Virus record (IMG/VR): IMGVR_UViG_3300032331_000853 | Coordinates: 1 to 22,972 of that record | Reading direction: 5' to 3' (one strand) | DNA: 22,972 bases | Source of the DNA: a virus | Shown here: positions 11,850 through 18,101 of the stretch, piece by piece | Position numbering within the stretch: the stretch's first letter is position 1 | Layout of the letters: each line of letters begins with the position of its first letter | Translations under genes and position numbers: made by a program | The notes under the pieces: generated by a model | What the model saw: the letters and a program-made list of their open reading frames with translations, nothing else | What the model was told of the DNA's origin: nothing | The model's database searches: none

Positions 11850-14588
11850 TTATTTAATTGAATCAATATGAGCTTCGAATGCGCGATCGAGTTCTTCAGT
11901 TTGTGAAGCTTTTAAAGCTGCGTCAGTTGGTGCGCCCTTAGATCCAGGCTTACGCATACGCTCACCAGAACCGCTCTTGATGCGCTTTTGCTTATCATGG
12001 ATATTATCCCATAGTCCGCGCTTTTCACCAATACTAATTTCTTCGCCACGACAGTTCCATTTTCTCAATGCTAATGCCTTACGAGTCGGTTCATCGTTTG
12101 GTTTTTTCATTGGTCCATCAACACCACCCATACGGGCGCAGAATGATCTACGACGACCAGCCGCTTTACTACCAGCCTTCAATTTAGAAGGAGATGTAGT
12201 CACAGGAGCTTGCAAATTACCACCTGTTGTTCGATTATAGTGATCACGACCTTTTTGAGTCAATCCGCCAGTTGGATTCTTGTAACCTTTTCCGTCTTCC
12301 GTTAGATCCTCATCCAACTTAGCTGCGAATCCACCAGCGATGAACGAGTTCACGCGAGCGAATGCTTTATTGACATCATCGTCTTCTTCTAGACCACGTG
12401 CGAATACTTCCTGAATGATTTCGATATCAACGCCTGAATATTCAGCCTTACGCATAAGCGATACAGCTTCTTTCGTTGTTACGTTGTATCGCACGCGAGA
12501 GTAAGTTGCGGCATCCTTAGTTGTTAGATCAATCAGCTTGTCTAGCAAATCAGCAAGTTTCTCACGCATCTGAGGACTCTGGAGAGCAAATTTCTTGCTA
12601 GAACGCAGCGCACGACGATACTTCTGTAGTTCTTCCTGATCTACGAGACCAAGACGAAGAAGCAAATCCATCTTCTGACTCAGTGGGCGGGATTGATTTG
12701 GATCAGTAGGACGATCTTCGTCTTTAGCAACTTCGCCGATGTTACGAACACCAGGAGGCTCATCCTTATCATAAGGAGATACGGCGCGAGTATTACCTCC
12801 AGCTGTGTAGAATTCTTTGAATGTCTTTCCGCCAAGACTGATCTTAGGTTTATCCTTTGGAATACCGTGAGCCATTACGTCATGGAAACTCTTAGCACTA
12901 GCGCCAGCAGCGATAGTGAACTTATGCTTATCAGCAGGCAAACGAAGTGCTTCGAACTTAGCAAGAAGTTTTTTCGCATCGTTGACTGAGATATGCATTT
13001 TATGTCCATCAGCAAAAACAGTTTCGTGTTCGCCGCGAGAGTTGATAGTCTTACGCATCTGATAGATAATGTTCGTATCACCAGCATCGCGAGCATCTTT
13101 ATCGGAAGCAGACTTACGACCTTCTTCTATCGAAGGATTATATGAATCGTCTAATGCTTTACCGTAGACGTGAGACTTTTTCGTGTGGATATTAAGGTGT
13201 CCTTGCTTTGGATTTGGTGCGAGGCGATCGTTCATCGTAGGATCAATACCTAAGGTATCCAACTTCTGTCCATCAACATTCAACGGAGAATCATGCTTCT
13301 TATCAGCCTTAGACTTTTCCCAGTCCTTTACGGAAACGCCACGCTGTGCTGCTTGAATTTTATCGTTAGCAACATCTTGTGGCGTATCTTCCTTGCTCTT
13401 CTTCTTATCGTTGAAGATGATCTGAGAAAATATTTCGTTGACGTATGATTCTTTCATATCGCGAGCCTTTTTAACTGAATCCTGAGCTTTTGAGCGGATT
13501 CTAGGGAGAATGCGTTTGGCATAAGCATCTACAGTGTTTTTGAGACGCTTTCCGAAACGCTGCATAAGAGCATTATCAACTGCAATTTTTTGTCCACGAG
13601 ATAACGAAGCATAATCCAAGTTCTTCTTACCAGTAGCACGTGCGCGAAGCATCATAAGAGCAGCCTTGCGGGCTCTCATACGAAGACGCTGGCCCTGTGG
13701 CATTTGCTTCGATTTGATTTGACGCATCTTAGCCAAACGCTTTGACATAGCTTTAAAACGCTGAGAACGTTTCTGACGATTCTGAATAGATACATTTTCT
13801 TGCGTATCTACTTTCTCATCCCAGACTTCTGGACCAGCGATAAGATCAGCAACCATCCAGTCGTCGTCTTGCATATCTAATTCATCATTAGACATACGAT
13901 CCAGTTGCTTTTTGATTTCTGCGTCGGAAGGAAGAGTGATGTCTAAATCAGTTTCATCTGCTTCTTCGAACATGAGTTGAGCAAAGACTTCATCGAGAGG
14001 ATTTACTTCTTCCTTCATTTCCTTCTTTCCTAGTCGTGTCTGAATCAAACGCACAATTCCTTTTACGTCTGCATCTGACATATTCTCAGGCATCTCGGCT
14101 CGAACTTTATCGAAGTCGCCTTCTTGAGCCCACTTACGAATATCCGAAGCGTGTACGCCGTCAGCATCACCAACACGAGTATTGATAATCGAATGGCGCG
14201 AATGAACAACAATCTTTTCGAACGTGAAATCTTTTCCATTGTACTTGTTAACGAGCGTTTCTGTAGCATCAACTCTGTCGTCACCCAATACGATATGAAC
14301 CGTGTCGTACTTACCAGATAGTTCAGCGAGAGAACCAATCATAGTAGGAGTAGAAGCGGGCGGCATATCGAACAGACCCTTGTGTCCAGGAAACATCTTG
14401 TTCAGATACTTAATCTTTTCCTGTGGAGTCAGCGGATTCTTTTTCTTATCGACTGTGCGCGAAACGAATATCTTGGCGTCACTGTGTGTTTGCTTTGCTA
14501 GTTTCAGCACAGCATCAACGAGATTCTTATGCTCCTTGTGTGGAGGTTGAAATCTACCTAGAGGAAGAACTACAACAGACTTACTCAT
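11850..14588 (-). CDS. 912-residue mosaic protein with N-terminal NMN-adenylyltransferase-like domain
   Basis: Residues 1 to about 185 look like a nucleotidyltransferase of the HxGH superfamily. GRFQPPHKEH (11-20) keeps both His but has Glu for the usual Gly, and HASDIR (146-151) stands where ISSTxxR occurs. It may adenylate NMN or a similar substrate. A very basic helical segment follows (about 270-378), then linkers, a helical block (632-702) and a Cys-containing C-terminal domain around RRRSFCARMGG (812-822; DUF6321-like by memory) with RGLWDNIHDKQKRI at 857-870. A short motif recurs at 199-209, 384-394 and 726-736. The start at 14588 overlaps the upstream gene by 8 nt; an ATG 12 codons earlier is less likely. 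It may be a virion or core protein. Confidence 0.8.
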   Translation of the reverse strand: MSKSVVVLPLGRFQPPHKEHKNLVDAVLKLAKQTHSDAKIFVSRTVDKKKNPLTPQEKIKYLNKMFPGHKGLFDMPPASTPTMIGSLAELSGKYDTVHIVLGDDRVDATETLVNKYNGKDFTFEKIVVHSRHSIINTRVGDADGVHASDIRKWAQEGDFDKVRAEMPENMSDADVKGIVRLIQTRLGKKEMKEEVNPLDEVFAQLMFEEADETDLDITLPSDAEIKKQLDRMSNDELDMQDDDWMVADLIAGPEVWDEKVDTQENVSIQNRQKRSQRFKAMSKRLAKMRQIKSKQMPQGQRLRMRARKAALMMLRARATGKKNLDYASLSRGQKIAVDNALMQRFGKRLKNTVDAYAKRILPRIRSKAQDSVKKARDMKESYVNEIFSQIIFNDKKKSKEDTPQDVANDKIQAAQRGVSVKDWEKSKADKKHDSPLNVDGQKLDTLGIDPTMNDRLAPNPKQGHLNIHTKKSHVYGKALDDSYNPSIEEGRKSASDKDARDAGDTNIIYQMRKTINSRGEHETVFADGHKMHISVNDAKKLLAKFEALRLPADKHKFTIAAGASAKSFHDVMAHGIPKDKPKISLGGKTFKEFYTAGGNTRAVSPYDKDEPPGVRNIGEVAKDEDRPTDPNQSRPLSQKMDLLLRLGLVDQEELQKYRRALRSSKKFALQSPQMREKLADLLDKLIDLTTKDAATYSRVRYNVTTKEAVSLMRKAEYSGVDIEIIQEVFARGLEEDDDVNKAFARVNSFIAGGFAAKLDEDLTEDGKGYKNPTGGLTQKGRDHYNRTTGGNLQAPVTTSPSKLKAGSKAAGRRRSFCARMGGVDGPMKKPNDEPTRKALALRKWNCRGEEISIGEKRGLWDNIHDKQKRIKSGSGERMRKPGSKGAPTDAALKASQTEELDRAFEAHIDSIK
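11851..11857 (-). promoter_or_regulatory. Putative late promoter box (TTAAATA)
   Basis: TTAAATA on the minus strand shares its end with the TAA stop of the 912-residue gene and lies about 42 nt upstream of the Pro-rich membrane protein and dps. It has one mismatch to TATAAATA. It is weaker than the two perfect copies at 15841 and 18052. Confidence 0.4.
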
Positions 14589-15762
14589 CTTTCGCTGCCG
14601 CCTTTCTGAATGCTCCAGCAGCAAAATTCTGCATACTGAAGACGCGACGCTTCACAAGTTTTGCAGTACCATGCTTACCGAGAAGCACATACCCTTCTGG
14701 ATTTGTTTTTACTAATCCACCAAACTCATTTTCGAAGTATCTGCGAATTGGCTGATATGTATCGAGTTCGTCGATAATCTTATCTTTGATATCACCAATC
14801 TTGTTGTGAACAGCAAGAACGTTATTGATAATCGTTTTGTTTGATTCAACGCCGCTAATCATGTCGTCTAGAATCTTTTGCTTCTTAGCTTTACCATCTA
14901 CGCTCTTAGCCTTGTCGACTTCCTTTTGAAGCTTCTGTTTCATATAATCAACGAATCCAGAATAAGACTGAATGCTGTTGTTACGAATGACATAGTTGGC
15001 ATAAGCAAGGAAGTGAGGATTCATCTCAGGTGTAGAAACGTATCCAAGATCATCTTTCGAAAGCGAAGCGAGAAGCTTATCAATCTGACCGATGAATGCC
15101 TGTAGATGACCTACGTCTCCAAGCGAAGGAGCATCAATAGGCATTAGGAACACATGAGCGTTCTTCTTCATATCGCGAGCTTGAATCGTGACACGACTAC
15201 CAGATGCGTTGTATTTCGTATGAGGAGCGAATCCAATAGCAGCGCGAGCGATCTCGCGACCCAAATCAGAATTGACGGGAACTGCATTTGTCACTGTGTT
15301 TGGCTTGAACAACCAGTGAGGAATTCCTTCGATATTGGTCTTTCTCAGATCAACCTTAGCGAACATCATATCGCCTTGAAGGATTTCGTTTTTATTGTTT
15401 GTGATTGAGGGAAGATACTCTAGAGCGAGCTTTAGTTTAGCTACAAGCCCAGGAGCGTGTCCGTGATTAACATCAATATCTTCGTTCGTAAAATTGATCT
15501 TCGGATCTTTGTTAAAGATAGACTTAGTTGCTACGAAGAACTTGCCGTTCTGATATCCGTAGAAGATACTTGGAGCGCCGTCGATCTTAGTTTGATTTAC
15601 AGTTTCAGGAATGCCCTTAATCAGGTCATGAAAGTATTCACTAATCTTTCTGATGGATCCTACGCCTAAAACGTAGATCTCATCTTCGATATGCGTATAG
15701 TGGGACTTGTCCTCTTCAGCAGAGAACGCAGCTTCCCTCATATACGTCTTGAAACCCTTCAT
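14581..15762 (-). CDS. Ligase-like covalent nucleotidyltransferase candidate (DUF6267-like)
   Basis: A 393-residue protein resembling a phage family of unknown function. KIDGAPS (59-65) fits motif I, KxDG, of DNA/RNA ligases and capping enzymes, with Lys59 as the adenylated residue. LQGDMMF (128-134) suits motif III, EGYVLL (356-361) motif IV and AKLVKRR (367-373) motif V. I infer an ATP- or NAD-dependent nucleotidyltransferase; it could be a degenerate ligase fold. The N-terminus MKGFKTYMREA has the register of the T4 capsid-targeting sequence (aromatic 4, aromatic 7, Glu10). It is led by a late promoter and a 5' region with direct repeats, has AAAGGAAG before the ATG, and overlaps the next gene. 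Confidence 0.75.
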   Translation of the reverse strand: MKGFKTYMREAAFSAEEDKSHYTHIEDEIYVLGVGSIRKISEYFHDLIKGIPETVNQTKIDGAPSIFYGYQNGKFFVATKSIFNKDPKINFTNEDIDVNHGHAPGLVAKLKLALEYLPSITNNKNEILQGDMMFAKVDLRKTNIEGIPHWLFKPNTVTNAVPVNSDLGREIARAAIGFAPHTKYNASGSRVTIQARDMKKNAHVFLMPIDAPSLGDVGHLQAFIGQIDKLLASLSKDDLGYVSTPEMNPHFLAYANYVIRNNSIQSYSGFVDYMKQKLQKEVDKAKSVDGKAKKQKILDDMISGVESNKTIINNVLAVHNKIGDIKDKIIDELDTYQPIRRYFENEFGGLVKTNPEGYVLLGKHGTAKLVKRRVFSMQNFAAGAFRKAAAKDE

Positions 15763-16041: not shown

Positions 16042-17442
16042 TTATAGTGGTGTGCTTAATACGTTTCTTAATGCATCCCCAGTGTTCACGAAGTTACGAT
16101 ATATGCCACCAGTCTTTCTTGAACTCAATTCAAGAATCTGACTATCCCCAAGATACACATCTAGCACATAATTTCCACCACCAGTCGTACGAGTCTTAGC
16201 TGACATTTTTTTACCTTTGAACTGACGCTTGAGCATCTGTAAGTTTTCAACGAAATATACTTTAAGCCCAGCACCAATGTCTACGACATTGATAGTTTTA
16301 TCGTTGAATGATATGAAATAGCTAATACCATTTATGAGTTTATCGATATCACTAGCTTTTGACATTTCATTGTAGACTAATTTATAGACTTCTGTTTGTG
16401 ATTGTGGCGTGATTGGTTCTAGATTAATTTTGTTGATCTTGTTGATAGTTGTTGTCGATAATGTCATTCCAACTGCGCTCGCGAATGTTTTCATAGCTTC
16501 AGAATGAAGACCAGAAGCTTGACCTACCTGAGTAATGTGATTAATCTTAACAGAAAGATTGAGCCTCATCGCGATAGGCTTACCAGGACTGCTATCGTTT
16601 CCAGACCATCCTTCATAGTATGCAGTCACGATGTCAGCTTTCGAAGGATTCTTTTTATCCTGACCAGAAATGCTGGTCGACACGATGTCTATACGATCTC
16701 TACGACCGTTGTTGTAAAAATACTCAGCATGTTCTTTACATGCACCTGAGTTAACATATCTACACGCATCCGCGATATATGGTGCTAAATCGCTACTCGA
16801 AGCAAGAACTGATTTTCTAGCCTTAAGATAAGTGAAAGCTGAACCATTAAGAACGTAGAACACATAAACAGTATCGACACCGACAGAAGCTTTCTTGTTT
16901 GGAACAGTAAACTTAAACGCTTTCGCAATAGACTTTTTAGTATCGGAAGGACCTTTGACTGCTGTGTATGCGCCAGAGTCTGACTTTTCCGTTAGAAATT
17001 GCTTGAGATATTTGGCTACATGTGCTGCGTTGATACTATCGCCTGTTCTACCTTCTACGAATCGAGCAACGATAGCAGCTTGTAGTAGCACTTCAGCAAG
17101 ATAACCGAATGGAACTTTTTCGCTGCTCTTCATGATAGAGCCAACAGGGAACCATTTGTCGGCTTCTTTTGAAGTATCTAATTCTATCGAATCGACAGCA
17201 TTTTTATATGCTGTTAGGTCTGTTATGTCGGCTCGTAACTTATTACCTTCAATGAGAGTCTTGAGAATATTAATTGCTAATTCTCTCGATCTCTTAGTAG
17301 GATTAAGCATGACGGGATCACCGCCACCAGTCTTTTTACTAATAAATGCGATAGGTGCGTCTTTGCTTAATACGTCAATCGCATAACTAACATACTTGTA
17401 GCACGATGTTAGGCCACTGGCCATTCTAATAGGATTAGCCAT
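16042..17442 (-). CDS. Predicted PD-(D/E)XK-type nuclease, 466 residues
   Basis: The best functional clue is in residues 250-320. IDIVSTSISGQ leads to SKADIV (Asp270), then about 27 residues later LNLSVKI (Lys299), then HITQVGQASG. An Asp followed by a strand ending in x-x-K and a Q-x-GQ helix resembles phage restriction-endonuclease-like proteins (usual form ISLK). GYLAEVLLQAA (Glu117) could be the N-terminal helix Glu of that fold. The usual Glu before Lys is replaced (SVK), so this is a hypothesis. The start overlaps the HAD stop by 8 nt with GAGGT upstream. It lies between a HAD phosphatase and a ligase-like protein, consistent with nucleic-acid processing. Confidence 0.62.
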   Translation of the reverse strand: MANPIRMASGLTSCYKYVSYAIDVLSKDAPIAFISKKTGGGDPVMLNPTKRSRELAINILKTLIEGNKLRADITDLTAYKNAVDSIELDTSKEADKWFPVGSIMKSSEKVPFGYLAEVLLQAAIVARFVEGRTGDSINAAHVAKYLKQFLTEKSDSGAYTAVKGPSDTKKSIAKAFKFTVPNKKASVGVDTVYVFYVLNGSAFTYLKARKSVLASSSDLAPYIADACRYVNSGACKEHAEYFYNNGRRDRIDIVSTSISGQDKKNPSKADIVTAYYEGWSGNDSSPGKPIAMRLNLSVKINHITQVGQASGLHSEAMKTFASAVGMTLSTTTINKINKINLEPITPQSQTEVYKLVYNEMSKASDIDKLINGISYFISFNDKTINVVDIGAGLKVYFVENLQMLKRQFKGKKMSAKTRTTGGGNYVLDVYLGDSQILELSSRKTGGIYRNFVNTGDALRNVLSTPL

Positions 17443-18043
17443 TATACCTCGTGATGCGTCCGTCTTCGTGAATTAGGAATGCTTCGAAATTCACTTTCGG
17501 AAACTCCAGATGAAGCTCAATGAACTTATCTAGATTAGCTTTAGCGTCATCGAACATTCTAGCAACTTGATACTTACCAGCCTTGAGCTGATCGCGAACA
17601 ATCTGCTTCTTTGCTTCTGCGCCAGGAGCTTTGATATTCCCTGCGCGATAGATGTGTACTTGACTGACGTCAAATCCATACTTACGAAACGTATCAAGGA
17701 AAAGATGTTTGTCGTCTAGATCTGCTCGCGCAGTGCAAATTATAATGCGCTTATTCGGATGCGCACGAAAACGATTAATCATCTTCTTAGCGGTCTTGAA
17801 TACAGTATCAATTGGCTTTGCTGTGTCTGCGAACACCTTTGATGAACGGAATTGAGCGAAGTCAAATTCCTCACCGTCTTTTAGCTTGTACACGTTGAAT
17901 TCTGCTGGAGTTAGCTTTTCTACAACCTTATCATCCTTTTTAACAAGGACTTGCGTTGTTGTGCTGAATAGTGTGTCGTCGATATCAAATACCGACAAGC
18001 TACCACTAACGTCTTCTGCGATAAACTCCTTGAACTTTATCAT
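17435..18043 (-). CDS. HAD-superfamily phosphatase with T4-like capsid-targeting N-terminus
   Basis: A 202-residue HAD hydrolase. VFDIDDTLF carries nucleophile Asp20 and general acid Asp22; IIICTAR gives motif II Thr; a Lys follows in AKKQIVRDQ; and MFDDAKANLD gives motif IV. The family includes 3'-phosphatases of polynucleotide kinases and nucleotidases. The N-terminus MIKFKEFIAE|D aligns without gaps to the T4 internal-protein sequence MKTYQEFIAE, whose FIAE is cleaved by the prohead protease gp21. It may therefore be packaged in the head and injected. I use ATG 18043 (AGGA upstream); an ATG 8 codons earlier lies upstream of the late promoter box. It precedes the predicted nuclease. Confidence 0.82.
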   Translation of the reverse strand: MIKFKEFIAEDVSGSLSVFDIDDTLFSTTTQVLVKKDDKVVEKLTPAEFNVYKLKDGEEFDFAQFRSSKVFADTAKPIDTVFKTAKKMINRFRAHPNKRIIICTARADLDDKHLFLDTFRKYGFDVSQVHIYRAGNIKAPGAEAKKQIVRDQLKAGKYQVARMFDDAKANLDKFIELHLEFPKVNFEAFLIHEDGRITRYNG

Positions 18044-18050
18044 TATAATC

Positions 18051-18101
18051 CTATTTATAAAATGCAAAAGGGGAGAGCGTGATTGCTCTCCCCTGACTCA
18101 T
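18051..18101 (-). CDS. Possible 16-residue leader peptide overlapping a terminator
   Basis: ATG 18099-18101 opens MSQGRAITLSPFAFYK, ending at a TAG that overlaps TATAAATA. TAAGGAGGTG, a ten-base complement to the 3' end of 16S rRNA, lies upstream (18121-18112), though the 12-nt gap to the ATG from GGAGG is longish. The frame spans the whole terminator hairpin, so translating ribosomes could prevent hairpin formation. The unusually strong ribosome site is the main support; it may be fortuitous. Confidence 0.3.
   Translation of the reverse strand: MSQGRAITLSPFAFYK
18052..18059 (-). promoter_or_regulatory. Perfect T4 late promoter (TATAAATA) for the HAD gene
   Basis: TATAAATA on the minus strand directly follows the terminator of the upstream unit. 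With a usual late start about 6 nt beyond the box, the HAD mRNA would have a leader of only a few nucleotides, so the AGGA before its ATG may be partly lost. It therefore could also serve as part of a longer read-through message. Confidence 0.65.
18061..18094 (-). terminator. Intrinsic terminator after the cell-wall hydrolase gene
   Basis: In the minus-strand RNA AGGGGAGAGC and GCUCUCCCCU form a perfect 10-bp stem (18094-18085 with 18078-18069) around a 6-nt loop. A U-rich tail follows (UUUUGCAUUUU). There is no T-tract in the plus direction, so it acts on leftward transcripts. It separates the hydrolase unit from the HAD unit. Confidence 0.88.

Follow-up and report, generated by a model that had tools for sequence, protein, structure and literature searches.

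The 22,972-nucleotide viral sequence IMGVR_UViG_3300032331_000853 (IMG/VR; the entire record, hereafter the window) comes from a T4-like myovirus, of whose genome it is a fragment; genes for a UvsX-like recombinase, a DnaB-like helicase and a primase lie there near a gene for a small phosphatase of the HAD superfamily (Table 1). A preliminary description of this DNA held that the phosphatase begins with MIKFKEFIAED, resembling the capsid-targeting sequence (CTS) of T4 internal head proteins, and that it is packaged, trimmed and injected with the genome. Re-reading of the open reading frame (ORF) on the minus strand returned exactly these residues. An upstream TTG would add eight codons to the ORF. 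Because an in-frame stop lies two codons 5' of the ATG in many close relatives, the annotated ATG is probably the correct start.

Table 1. Features of the HAD phosphatase locus in the window
Feature	Position	Strand	Remarks
HAD phosphatase ORF	17435-18043	minus	ATG at 18043; 202 residues; N-terminus MIKFKEFIAEDVSGSLSVFDIDDTLF
N-terminal tag MIKFKEFIAE	18014-18043	minus	codons 1-10; predicted CTS, with a gp21 cut expected after Glu10
HAD-superfamily phosphatase domain	17435-18013	minus	codons 11-202 and stop
T4-type late promoter box TATAAATA	18052-18059	minus	starts 16 nucleotides before the HAD start codon
DUF6267 protein tag MKGFKTYMRE	15733-15762	minus	second strict match in the window
DUF6267 (PF19782) / phrog_455 body, polynucleotide-ligase-like nucleotidyltransferase	14581-15732	minus	full protein 14581-15762
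NMNAT/cytidylyltransferase-like protein with C-terminal DUF6321	11850-14624	minus	same locus; untagged here

The statement that T4 internal head proteins start with MKTYQEFIAE is accurate for IPII and IPIII in the T4 record but does not extend to IPI (MKTFKEFTST) or Alt (MELITELFDE). Compared with IPII and IPIII, the HAD N-terminus matches without a gap at the aromatic residue 4, at EFIAE in positions 6-10, which includes Phe7, Ile8 and Glu10, and in the spacing from the initiator Met. In T4, residues 1-10 of IPIII are enough for packaging, CTS residues 4 and 7 are important in targeting and 8 and 10 in processing, and the protease gp21 cuts following [LI]xE (PMC9026906). The HAD tag has F4, F7, I8 and E10 at these positions, and its IAE fits the cleavage rule. 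The catalytic Asp pair lies as close to the proposed cut as had been noted, Asp20 and Asp22 being residues 10 and 12 past it. An AlphaFold2 model of the protein is confident (mean predicted local distance difference test score, pLDDT, 88.4) except for the tag, which is unstructured (residues 1-7 pLDDT <50). The possibility that the tag is a piece of the HAD fold was rejected, as it is disordered in the model and tagless relatives exist.

For quantitative comparisons we used a strict tag pattern, M..[FYW]..[FYW][ILVMF].E, settled before any proteome comparison; a short form (M.{1,2}) was introduced later, after the DUF6267 protein and a protein of phage S-SZBM1 had been seen. Amino-acid composition predicts the strict pattern with p about 1.7e-4 per N-terminus. 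It stands at position 1 in 19 of 905 genes of the window and ten relative contigs, which were picked for carrying the HAD gene, so that the 19 tags are non-independent. Shuffling the 905 N-termini yielded a mean of 0.17 strict tags and a maximum of 3 in 2,000 runs (about 2 per 10,000 genes), and the pattern occurs at none of 4,800 internal Met residues of the same set. The only sample not selected for HAD comprises seven isolates (T4, S-SM1, S-SCSM1, S-CREM2, S-SZBM1, Syn9 and Melnitz2), where 14 of 1,567 genes are strictly tagged; three of these tags fall among the 268 genes called in whole T4, on IPII, IPIII and gp61.1. The strict tag is absent from 486 genes of three non-T4 phages, lambda, SPO1 and phiKZ (initial 200 kb). 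Scans were partial for Melnitz2 (140,000 of 141,548 bases), phiKZ (200,000 of 280,334), G002 (80,000 of 80,241) and G009 (40,000 of 41,189). Shuffles, internal Met residues, composition and the three non-T4 phages led us to reject a chance match. Search-pattern bias was also rejected: the tag peptide that served as a search pattern occurs in 1 of the 63 first-scan loci described below (L002), and the second scan used only core HAD patterns.

The tag is widespread among relatives of the HAD protein. HAD loci were taken from a first scan of viral contigs (63 loci), a second scan (the best 80 of 522 with alignment) and bacterial or archaeal genomes (at least 10); the annotated phage collection held one relative, in a record of an uncultured phage. 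Collapsing 152 HAD frames at ≥85% body identity left 47 non-redundant proteins, which corrects for contigs shared by the two viral scans. Among them, 29 carry the strict tag, four have extra residues before it and one has a tag one residue shorter. The N-termini of HAD homologs, random ones among which the preliminary description regarded as damaging to its reading, are thus mostly not random, with the tag or a close variant in 34 of 47 and none in the rest. In the 29 strict proteins, position 4 is always Phe, although the pattern permitted F, Y or W; position 7 is always Tyr or Phe, position 8 is Ile or Leu in 27, and the other positions vary, giving 28 distinct 12-residue tags. The constrained sites are those that matter in T4 (4, 7, 8 and 10). 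The pattern is kept in relatives at 43-50% protein identity. Three untagged viral proteins (L054, L157, L178) retain part of the tag; L124-L132 are examples of phage HADs that lack it. On six loci from bacterial-genome contigs (L194-L199; SAR86, Acidobacteria, Aureisphaera) no tag was found, a loose-pattern match in L199 being spurious, and their proteins align only from residue 15 onward. The comparison fits a gain of the tag in phages.

The same address recurs on proteins that are otherwise unrelated by blastp. On HAD-bearing contigs the strict tag opens ORFs of 14 families, HAD included, which share no mutual blastp similarity (E 1e-3) after deletion of 12 residues, just as IPII and IPIII share the tag on unrelated bodies. 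Besides HAD, these families include DUF6267, NMNAT/cytidylyltransferase, a DUF6321 protein, an amidoligase-like protein (under the Pfam cut-off) and several small unknowns; some of the tagged genes are tens of kilobases away from HAD. DUF6267, located by motif in 41 of the 63 first-scan loci, is tagged by a permissive pattern in 41 of 41. Tagged relatives of the NMNAT/cytidylyltransferase occur in G007 and in phages S-SM1, Syn9, S-SCSM1 and S-CREM2. A ten-residue motif is short, and relatives share a common ancestry, so that a chance resemblance or an inherited but functionless N-terminus has to be weighed. We regard this as very improbable: the pattern persists at 43-50% identity while other tag positions turn over, it recurs on 13 other families, and neither shuffling nor the three non-T4 phages reproduce it.

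Runs of consecutive tagged genes, five in L051 (3392-5317) and four in L043 (4436-8021), are likely internal-protein operons. A strictly tagged gene (MKSFSEFMTE) also lies within the head cluster of G027 (G027:C1:33099-33476), two genes before gp21 and approximately in the place of T4 gp67/gp68. Its positional counterparts in G001, G005, G024 and G025 have looser forms of the tag, as if core proteins shared the address.

The HAD genes of G001, G002 and G003 are preceded, at 13-15 nucleotides, by the same T4-type late promoter box as in the window. In G001 and G003 this box also stands before gp22, before the gene that follows gp23 and before a small gene located where gp67 would be; head genes besides gp21 and gp23 were named from position. 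Of 122 tagged HADs, 40 have a late box within 60 nucleotides upstream, vs 0 of 23 untagged ones and 0.7% of random windows; these counts cluster by clade and are not corrected for contigs shared between scans. A box this near would give a transcript with almost no leader. The 154.7-kb contig G001 (L009), whose HAD is 93% identical to that of the window, carries a gp21 protease (PF03420) together with gp23. The gp21 family (Peptidase_S77) was found in 4 of 15 relative contigs (G001, G003, G005, G014), in 4 of 17 further contigs and in all seven isolate records tested; where a contig gave no match, it may be a fragment. [IL]xE sites are enriched in gp22 of G001 (13 vs 5.5 in shuffles), as in gp22 of T4 (16 vs 5.7). 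Upstream of HAD in nine loci (L134, L146, L147, L148, L152, L155, L168, L180, L186) we noted by eye TTGAC and TATA(A/C)T-type boxes resembling sigma70 promoters, together with an ATAAATA box about 46 nucleotides upstream; in such clades HAD may also be made early.

Published virion proteomes of other T4-like phages are mostly in accord with packaging by the tag. All four strictly tagged proteins among 211 gene products of S-CREM2 are among the 52 virion proteins detected by mass spectrometry (MS; Fisher p 0.0034; PMC10665884). Six of the virion proteins of this phage are non-structural: three are strictly tagged, Cas9 has a displaced motif, and two endolysins have none (PMC10665884). In Cas9 (ORF12) the motif follows an extension and starts near residue 18; as no ATG, GTG or TTG immediately precedes it, it was counted as non-strict; ORF13 and ORF15 are near misses. 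The sole strictly tagged gene of S-SM1 encodes the T4-GC190 cytidylyltransferase reported in virions (PMC3037559), and one of two in S-SCSM1 encodes an NMNAT detected in virions by MS (PMC9602691), which belongs to a run of five consecutive genes all labelled as virion proteins. The cytidylyltransferase detected by MS in S-SZBM1 virions has a tag one residue shorter, MRFRQFIIE (PMC9146016); strict matches in this phage are a 51-residue frame, probably an artefact, and a 105-residue protein. The latter belongs to a conserved small protein of about 105 residues (S-SZBM1 122314-122640; S-SCSM1 44215, MKTFKQFMSESVNISGDFNGNLY...), which in S-SCSM1 sits between two virion-labelled genes and is predicted from its strict tag to be virion cargo.

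A tag of this kind could instead be a docking peptide for another assembly of T4-like phages, such as a replication or transcription complex. Early expression from the sigma70-like boxes seen by eye in some relatives would suit this explanation, as would the position of the locus amid replication genes (UvsX, gp41, gp61) in the window, HTVC008M and S-SM1, and a tagged S-CREM1 protein that goes unnamed in the available text on its virions (PMC9964418). We nevertheless judge it improbable, since strictly tagged genes coincide with the S-CREM2 virion proteome and with T4 IPII and IPIII, the tagged gene of G027 lies in the head cluster two genes before gp21, and the tagged NMNAT of S-SCSM1 is one of five consecutive virion-labelled genes.

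Several observations weigh against a packaging tag on the HAD protein. The window, a 23-kb fragment, carries no head genes, so that gp21 is placed in this phage by way of its relatives, and all virion data come from phages other than carriers of this HAD. Thirteen of the 47 non-redundant HADs, ten viral and three from bacterial-genome contigs, lack the tag. Among 89 scored HAD loci, a count not corrected for shared contigs, 58 are strict, five relaxed (including the spurious L199) and 26 untagged, although some of the 26 carry extra residues before a tag (L135, L145). Some HAD clades have no late box or have the sigma70-like boxes, some of these beside ATAAATA. The strict pattern fails on T4 IPI and Alt, and it also matches internally, away from gene starts, at 48 of 207,230 positions, including an internal Met of S-SCSM1 (28058) in frame with a long gene. 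The proposed cut is followed by Asp in the window protein and frequently by Glu in relatives, vs Ala after both T4 tags read. DUF6267 proteins of S-SM1, Syn9, S-ShM2 and S-SSM6b are untagged, and that of HTVC008M has no strict tag.

The proteomes themselves hold exceptions. In S-SCSM1, the strictly tagged gp030 has no virion label, although it is flanked by two virion-labelled genes. A strictly tagged NadR-like protein of S-CREM1 (MKRYTNFLSE) has no virion label either and is unnamed among the 14 proteins of a shallow proteome, as far as the available text goes (PMC9964418); its absence from the virion list slightly lowered our confidence in packaging. The NMNAT-like protein of S-PM2 was undetected in virions (PMC3037559). 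Its frame has no tag ahead of the NMNAT-like domain, which fits the non-detection; the start of this gene was not traced. Most of the MS evidence concerns a single family, NMNAT, recurring across phages, and is not fully independent. Moreover, the authors of the S-SCSM1 and S-CREM2 studies allow for carry-over from the lysate (PMC9602691, PMC10665884), for which the tag offers an alternative, a mechanism for true packaging of the suspected enzymes.

On balance, the interpretation of the HAD N-terminus as a T4-type CTS is supported, because the tag is conserved in divergent relatives and reused on unrelated proteins, a late box precedes the gene, relatives encode gp21, and most of the published virion proteomes compared agree. 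We therefore consider it likely that the tag is a working CTS and, equally, that in a T4-like phage it brings the phosphatase into the head as an internal protein. Extrapolating from T4 (PMC9026906, PMC3012670, PMC9391042) and from the proteomes of other phages, we infer the following sequence of events. HAD would be expressed late from the TATAAATA box observed upstream, and its residues 1-10 would bind the prohead core. A gp21-type protease would then cut after Glu10, so that Asp20 would become residue 10 of the trimmed protein; such cleavage is probable, though held with somewhat less confidence than packaging. The freed, complete enzyme would stay with the packaged DNA and enter the next host with the genome, a step that we favour a little more cautiously still. 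Alternatively, HAD could be packaged and trimmed for a task in the head or in assembly, such as acting on the ends of packaged DNA, and be dispensable in the new host. The role in head morphogenesis suggested for T4 IPIII (PMC9026906) offers a precedent, and injection is itself an extrapolation; the invariant catalytic residues, which argue for an enzyme with a substrate, make this option unlikely to us.

The body of the protein appears to be a complete enzyme. Asp20, Asp22, Thr104, Lys145, Asp165 and Asp166 are invariant in 25 of 25 aligned sequences; we take these residues to represent HAD catalytic motifs I-IV. VIA-align placed the model first with the 3'-phosphatase of T4 Pnkp (Z 13.3, root-mean-square deviation 2.7, 134 of 142 residues, 12% identity) and next with Pnkp1 of an RNA repair complex (Z 13.0), and PHROGs matched the protein to phrog_415, 'polynucleotide kinase', with E 1.8e-9. 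The neighbouring DUF6267 protein, to which Pfam assigns no function, appears to be a polynucleotide ligase, judging from its conserved motifs and listed structural matches. K59, D61, E356, G357, V359 and K368 (KxD, EGxV and KxV) are invariant in 21 sequences, KIDD replacing KxDG in the L021-L024 group; KxDG, EGxV and the Lys are presumably nucleotidyltransferase motifs I, IV and V. All 50 matches listed by VIA-align are polynucleotide ligases, RNA ligases first, the best at a Z of only 7.8, and the best Foldseek E was 0.07. NCBIfam gave no match for either HAD or DUF6267. Of seven records, T4 alone gave a match to its RnlA family (PF09511); five of the others are contigs and possibly fragments. 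In two contigs an NMNAT-like protein is fused to a P-loop kinase (Zeta_toxin/AAA_33; G005:C1:48760-50667 and G008:C1:10480-12579), and these fusions have a loose tag at their start, MKFIDFLIKES or MKFKDFLIKES.

Modelling thus makes it plausible that HAD acts on nucleic-acid ends; its narrower assignment as a nucleic-acid 3'-end phosphatase is tentative, with the chances close to balanced. Our preferred reading is that HAD and DUF6267 form a healing-and-sealing kit, on account of the Pnkp-like fold, the invariant catalytic residues, the ligase-like neighbour and the P-loop kinase in the G005 and G008 proteins. The Pnkp-like 3'-phosphatase would heal broken RNA or DNA ends for the tagged DUF6267 to seal. 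The main rival is that the tag packages a phosphatase of nucleotides or other small molecules, AphA-like or otherwise, serving metabolism or counter-defence and not end repair. In its favour, AphA ties with Pnkp (VIA Z 12.8, root-mean-square deviation 3.3), within 1 of the T4 Pnkp score and with more residues aligned (157). Foldseek ranks the HAD domain of Lem4 first (E 2.2e-4, the only value below 0.001; VIA Z 11.4), AphA third and T4 Pnkp seventh, and the protein misses the Pfam HAD_PNKP cut-off (17.2 vs 27.6 bits). Other tagged virion enzymes (NMNAT/cytidylyltransferase, SAM hydrolase, APH-like kinase) are metabolite-directed. The small-molecule explanation fits less well with the phrog_415 match, with the alignment to T4 Pnkp over 134 of its 142 residues, and with the ligase-like protein in 41 of 63 HAD loci. 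We consider it a real but less probable possibility than the healing-and-sealing kit.

Known systems provide partial parallels. Some HAD-bearing relatives of the window phage resemble T4 with IPII and IPIII in having a gp21 protease. The HAD cargo, however, is an enzyme with a complete active site; of the T4 proteins, IPI is an inhibitor, and no biochemical function is known for IPII or IPIII. The tags seen here are also more diverse (MLKFREFIAE, MKSFLQYLEE, MIGFKDYIFE), with an acidic residue past the cut. Another parallel is the virion NMNAT of marine T4-like cyanophages, with tags MKKFSAFLNE in S-SM1, MKSFLQFLKE in S-SCSM1 and MKNFSSFLTE in S-CREM2, and a gp41-gp61 locus in S-SM1, Syn9 and S-SCSM1 as in the window; this is a different enzyme from HAD, and the NMNAT-like protein of the window is untagged. 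T4 Pnkp shares with HAD the catalytic residues and a ligase partner, the T4 RNA ligases corresponding to the ligase-like protein near HAD, but HAD of the window has no kinase domain and T4 PseT has no such tag. T4 Alt, an ADP-ribosyltransferase, is likewise an enzyme carried in the head (PMC9026906), although its N-terminus falls outside the strict pattern.

That diverse T-even internal proteins have only the CTS in common is already known (PMC3012670), and the CTS has been suggested to let T4-like phages package various proteins (PMC9026906). Among the matches listed in our literature search, from which subscription papers and supplements were excluded, none linked the CTS to cyanophage virion enzymes, HAD or DUF6267; 'capsid targeting' occurred only in PMC9026906, the available text of which contains no cytidylyltransferase. 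It is conceivable, though we hold it rather tentatively, that T4-like phages well outside the T-even group also use the T4 CTS, as a general address code for loading interchangeable enzymes into the virion. Its cargo would comprise the repair kit (HAD and DUF6267), NMNAT, SAM hydrolase, a kinase and possibly a phage Cas9. Enzymes that the authors could not assign, and suspected might be contaminants, turn up in the virion proteomes of several marine T4-like phages. If true, the code would explain these puzzling non-structural proteins and could be read from sequence alone, predicting which enzymes accompany the genome and act before phage expression in many phages, uncultured ones included. 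The repair kit would arrive with the genome, so that RNA or DNA cleaved by host defences could be repaired ahead of any phage gene expression. The tag makes the question of injected cargo in T4-like phages directly testable and would supply a native set of tags for loading T4-like heads.

Other observations concern individual cargo candidates. In S-CREM2 (OR473000, 3837-13331; L231), genes for a SAM hydrolase, a Cas9-like protein, an APH-like kinase and two small proteins, all detected in virions, lie together with two strict tags and three near or displaced ones, which suggests a packaged anti-defence set that includes a phage Cas9. The NMNAT-like domain of S-PM2 (NC_006820, 103491-104801; L301) is part of a longer frame; ahead of the domain, this frame resembles, by eye, the C-terminus of DUF6267, as if the two cargo proteins had been fused. 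T4 gp61.1 (NC_000866, 18966-19130; L272), 54 residues long and annotated as hypothetical, starts with MKTFKEFIKED, which fits the strict tag and makes it a candidate for an unrecognised T4 internal head protein. Finally, L002 encodes a HAD identical to that of the window, and its next ORF (L002:6657-7832) is a strictly tagged protein of 391 residues; in its place, beside the HAD gene of the window, stands an untagged protein of 466 residues (16042-17442), a possible case of strain-level cargo exchange.

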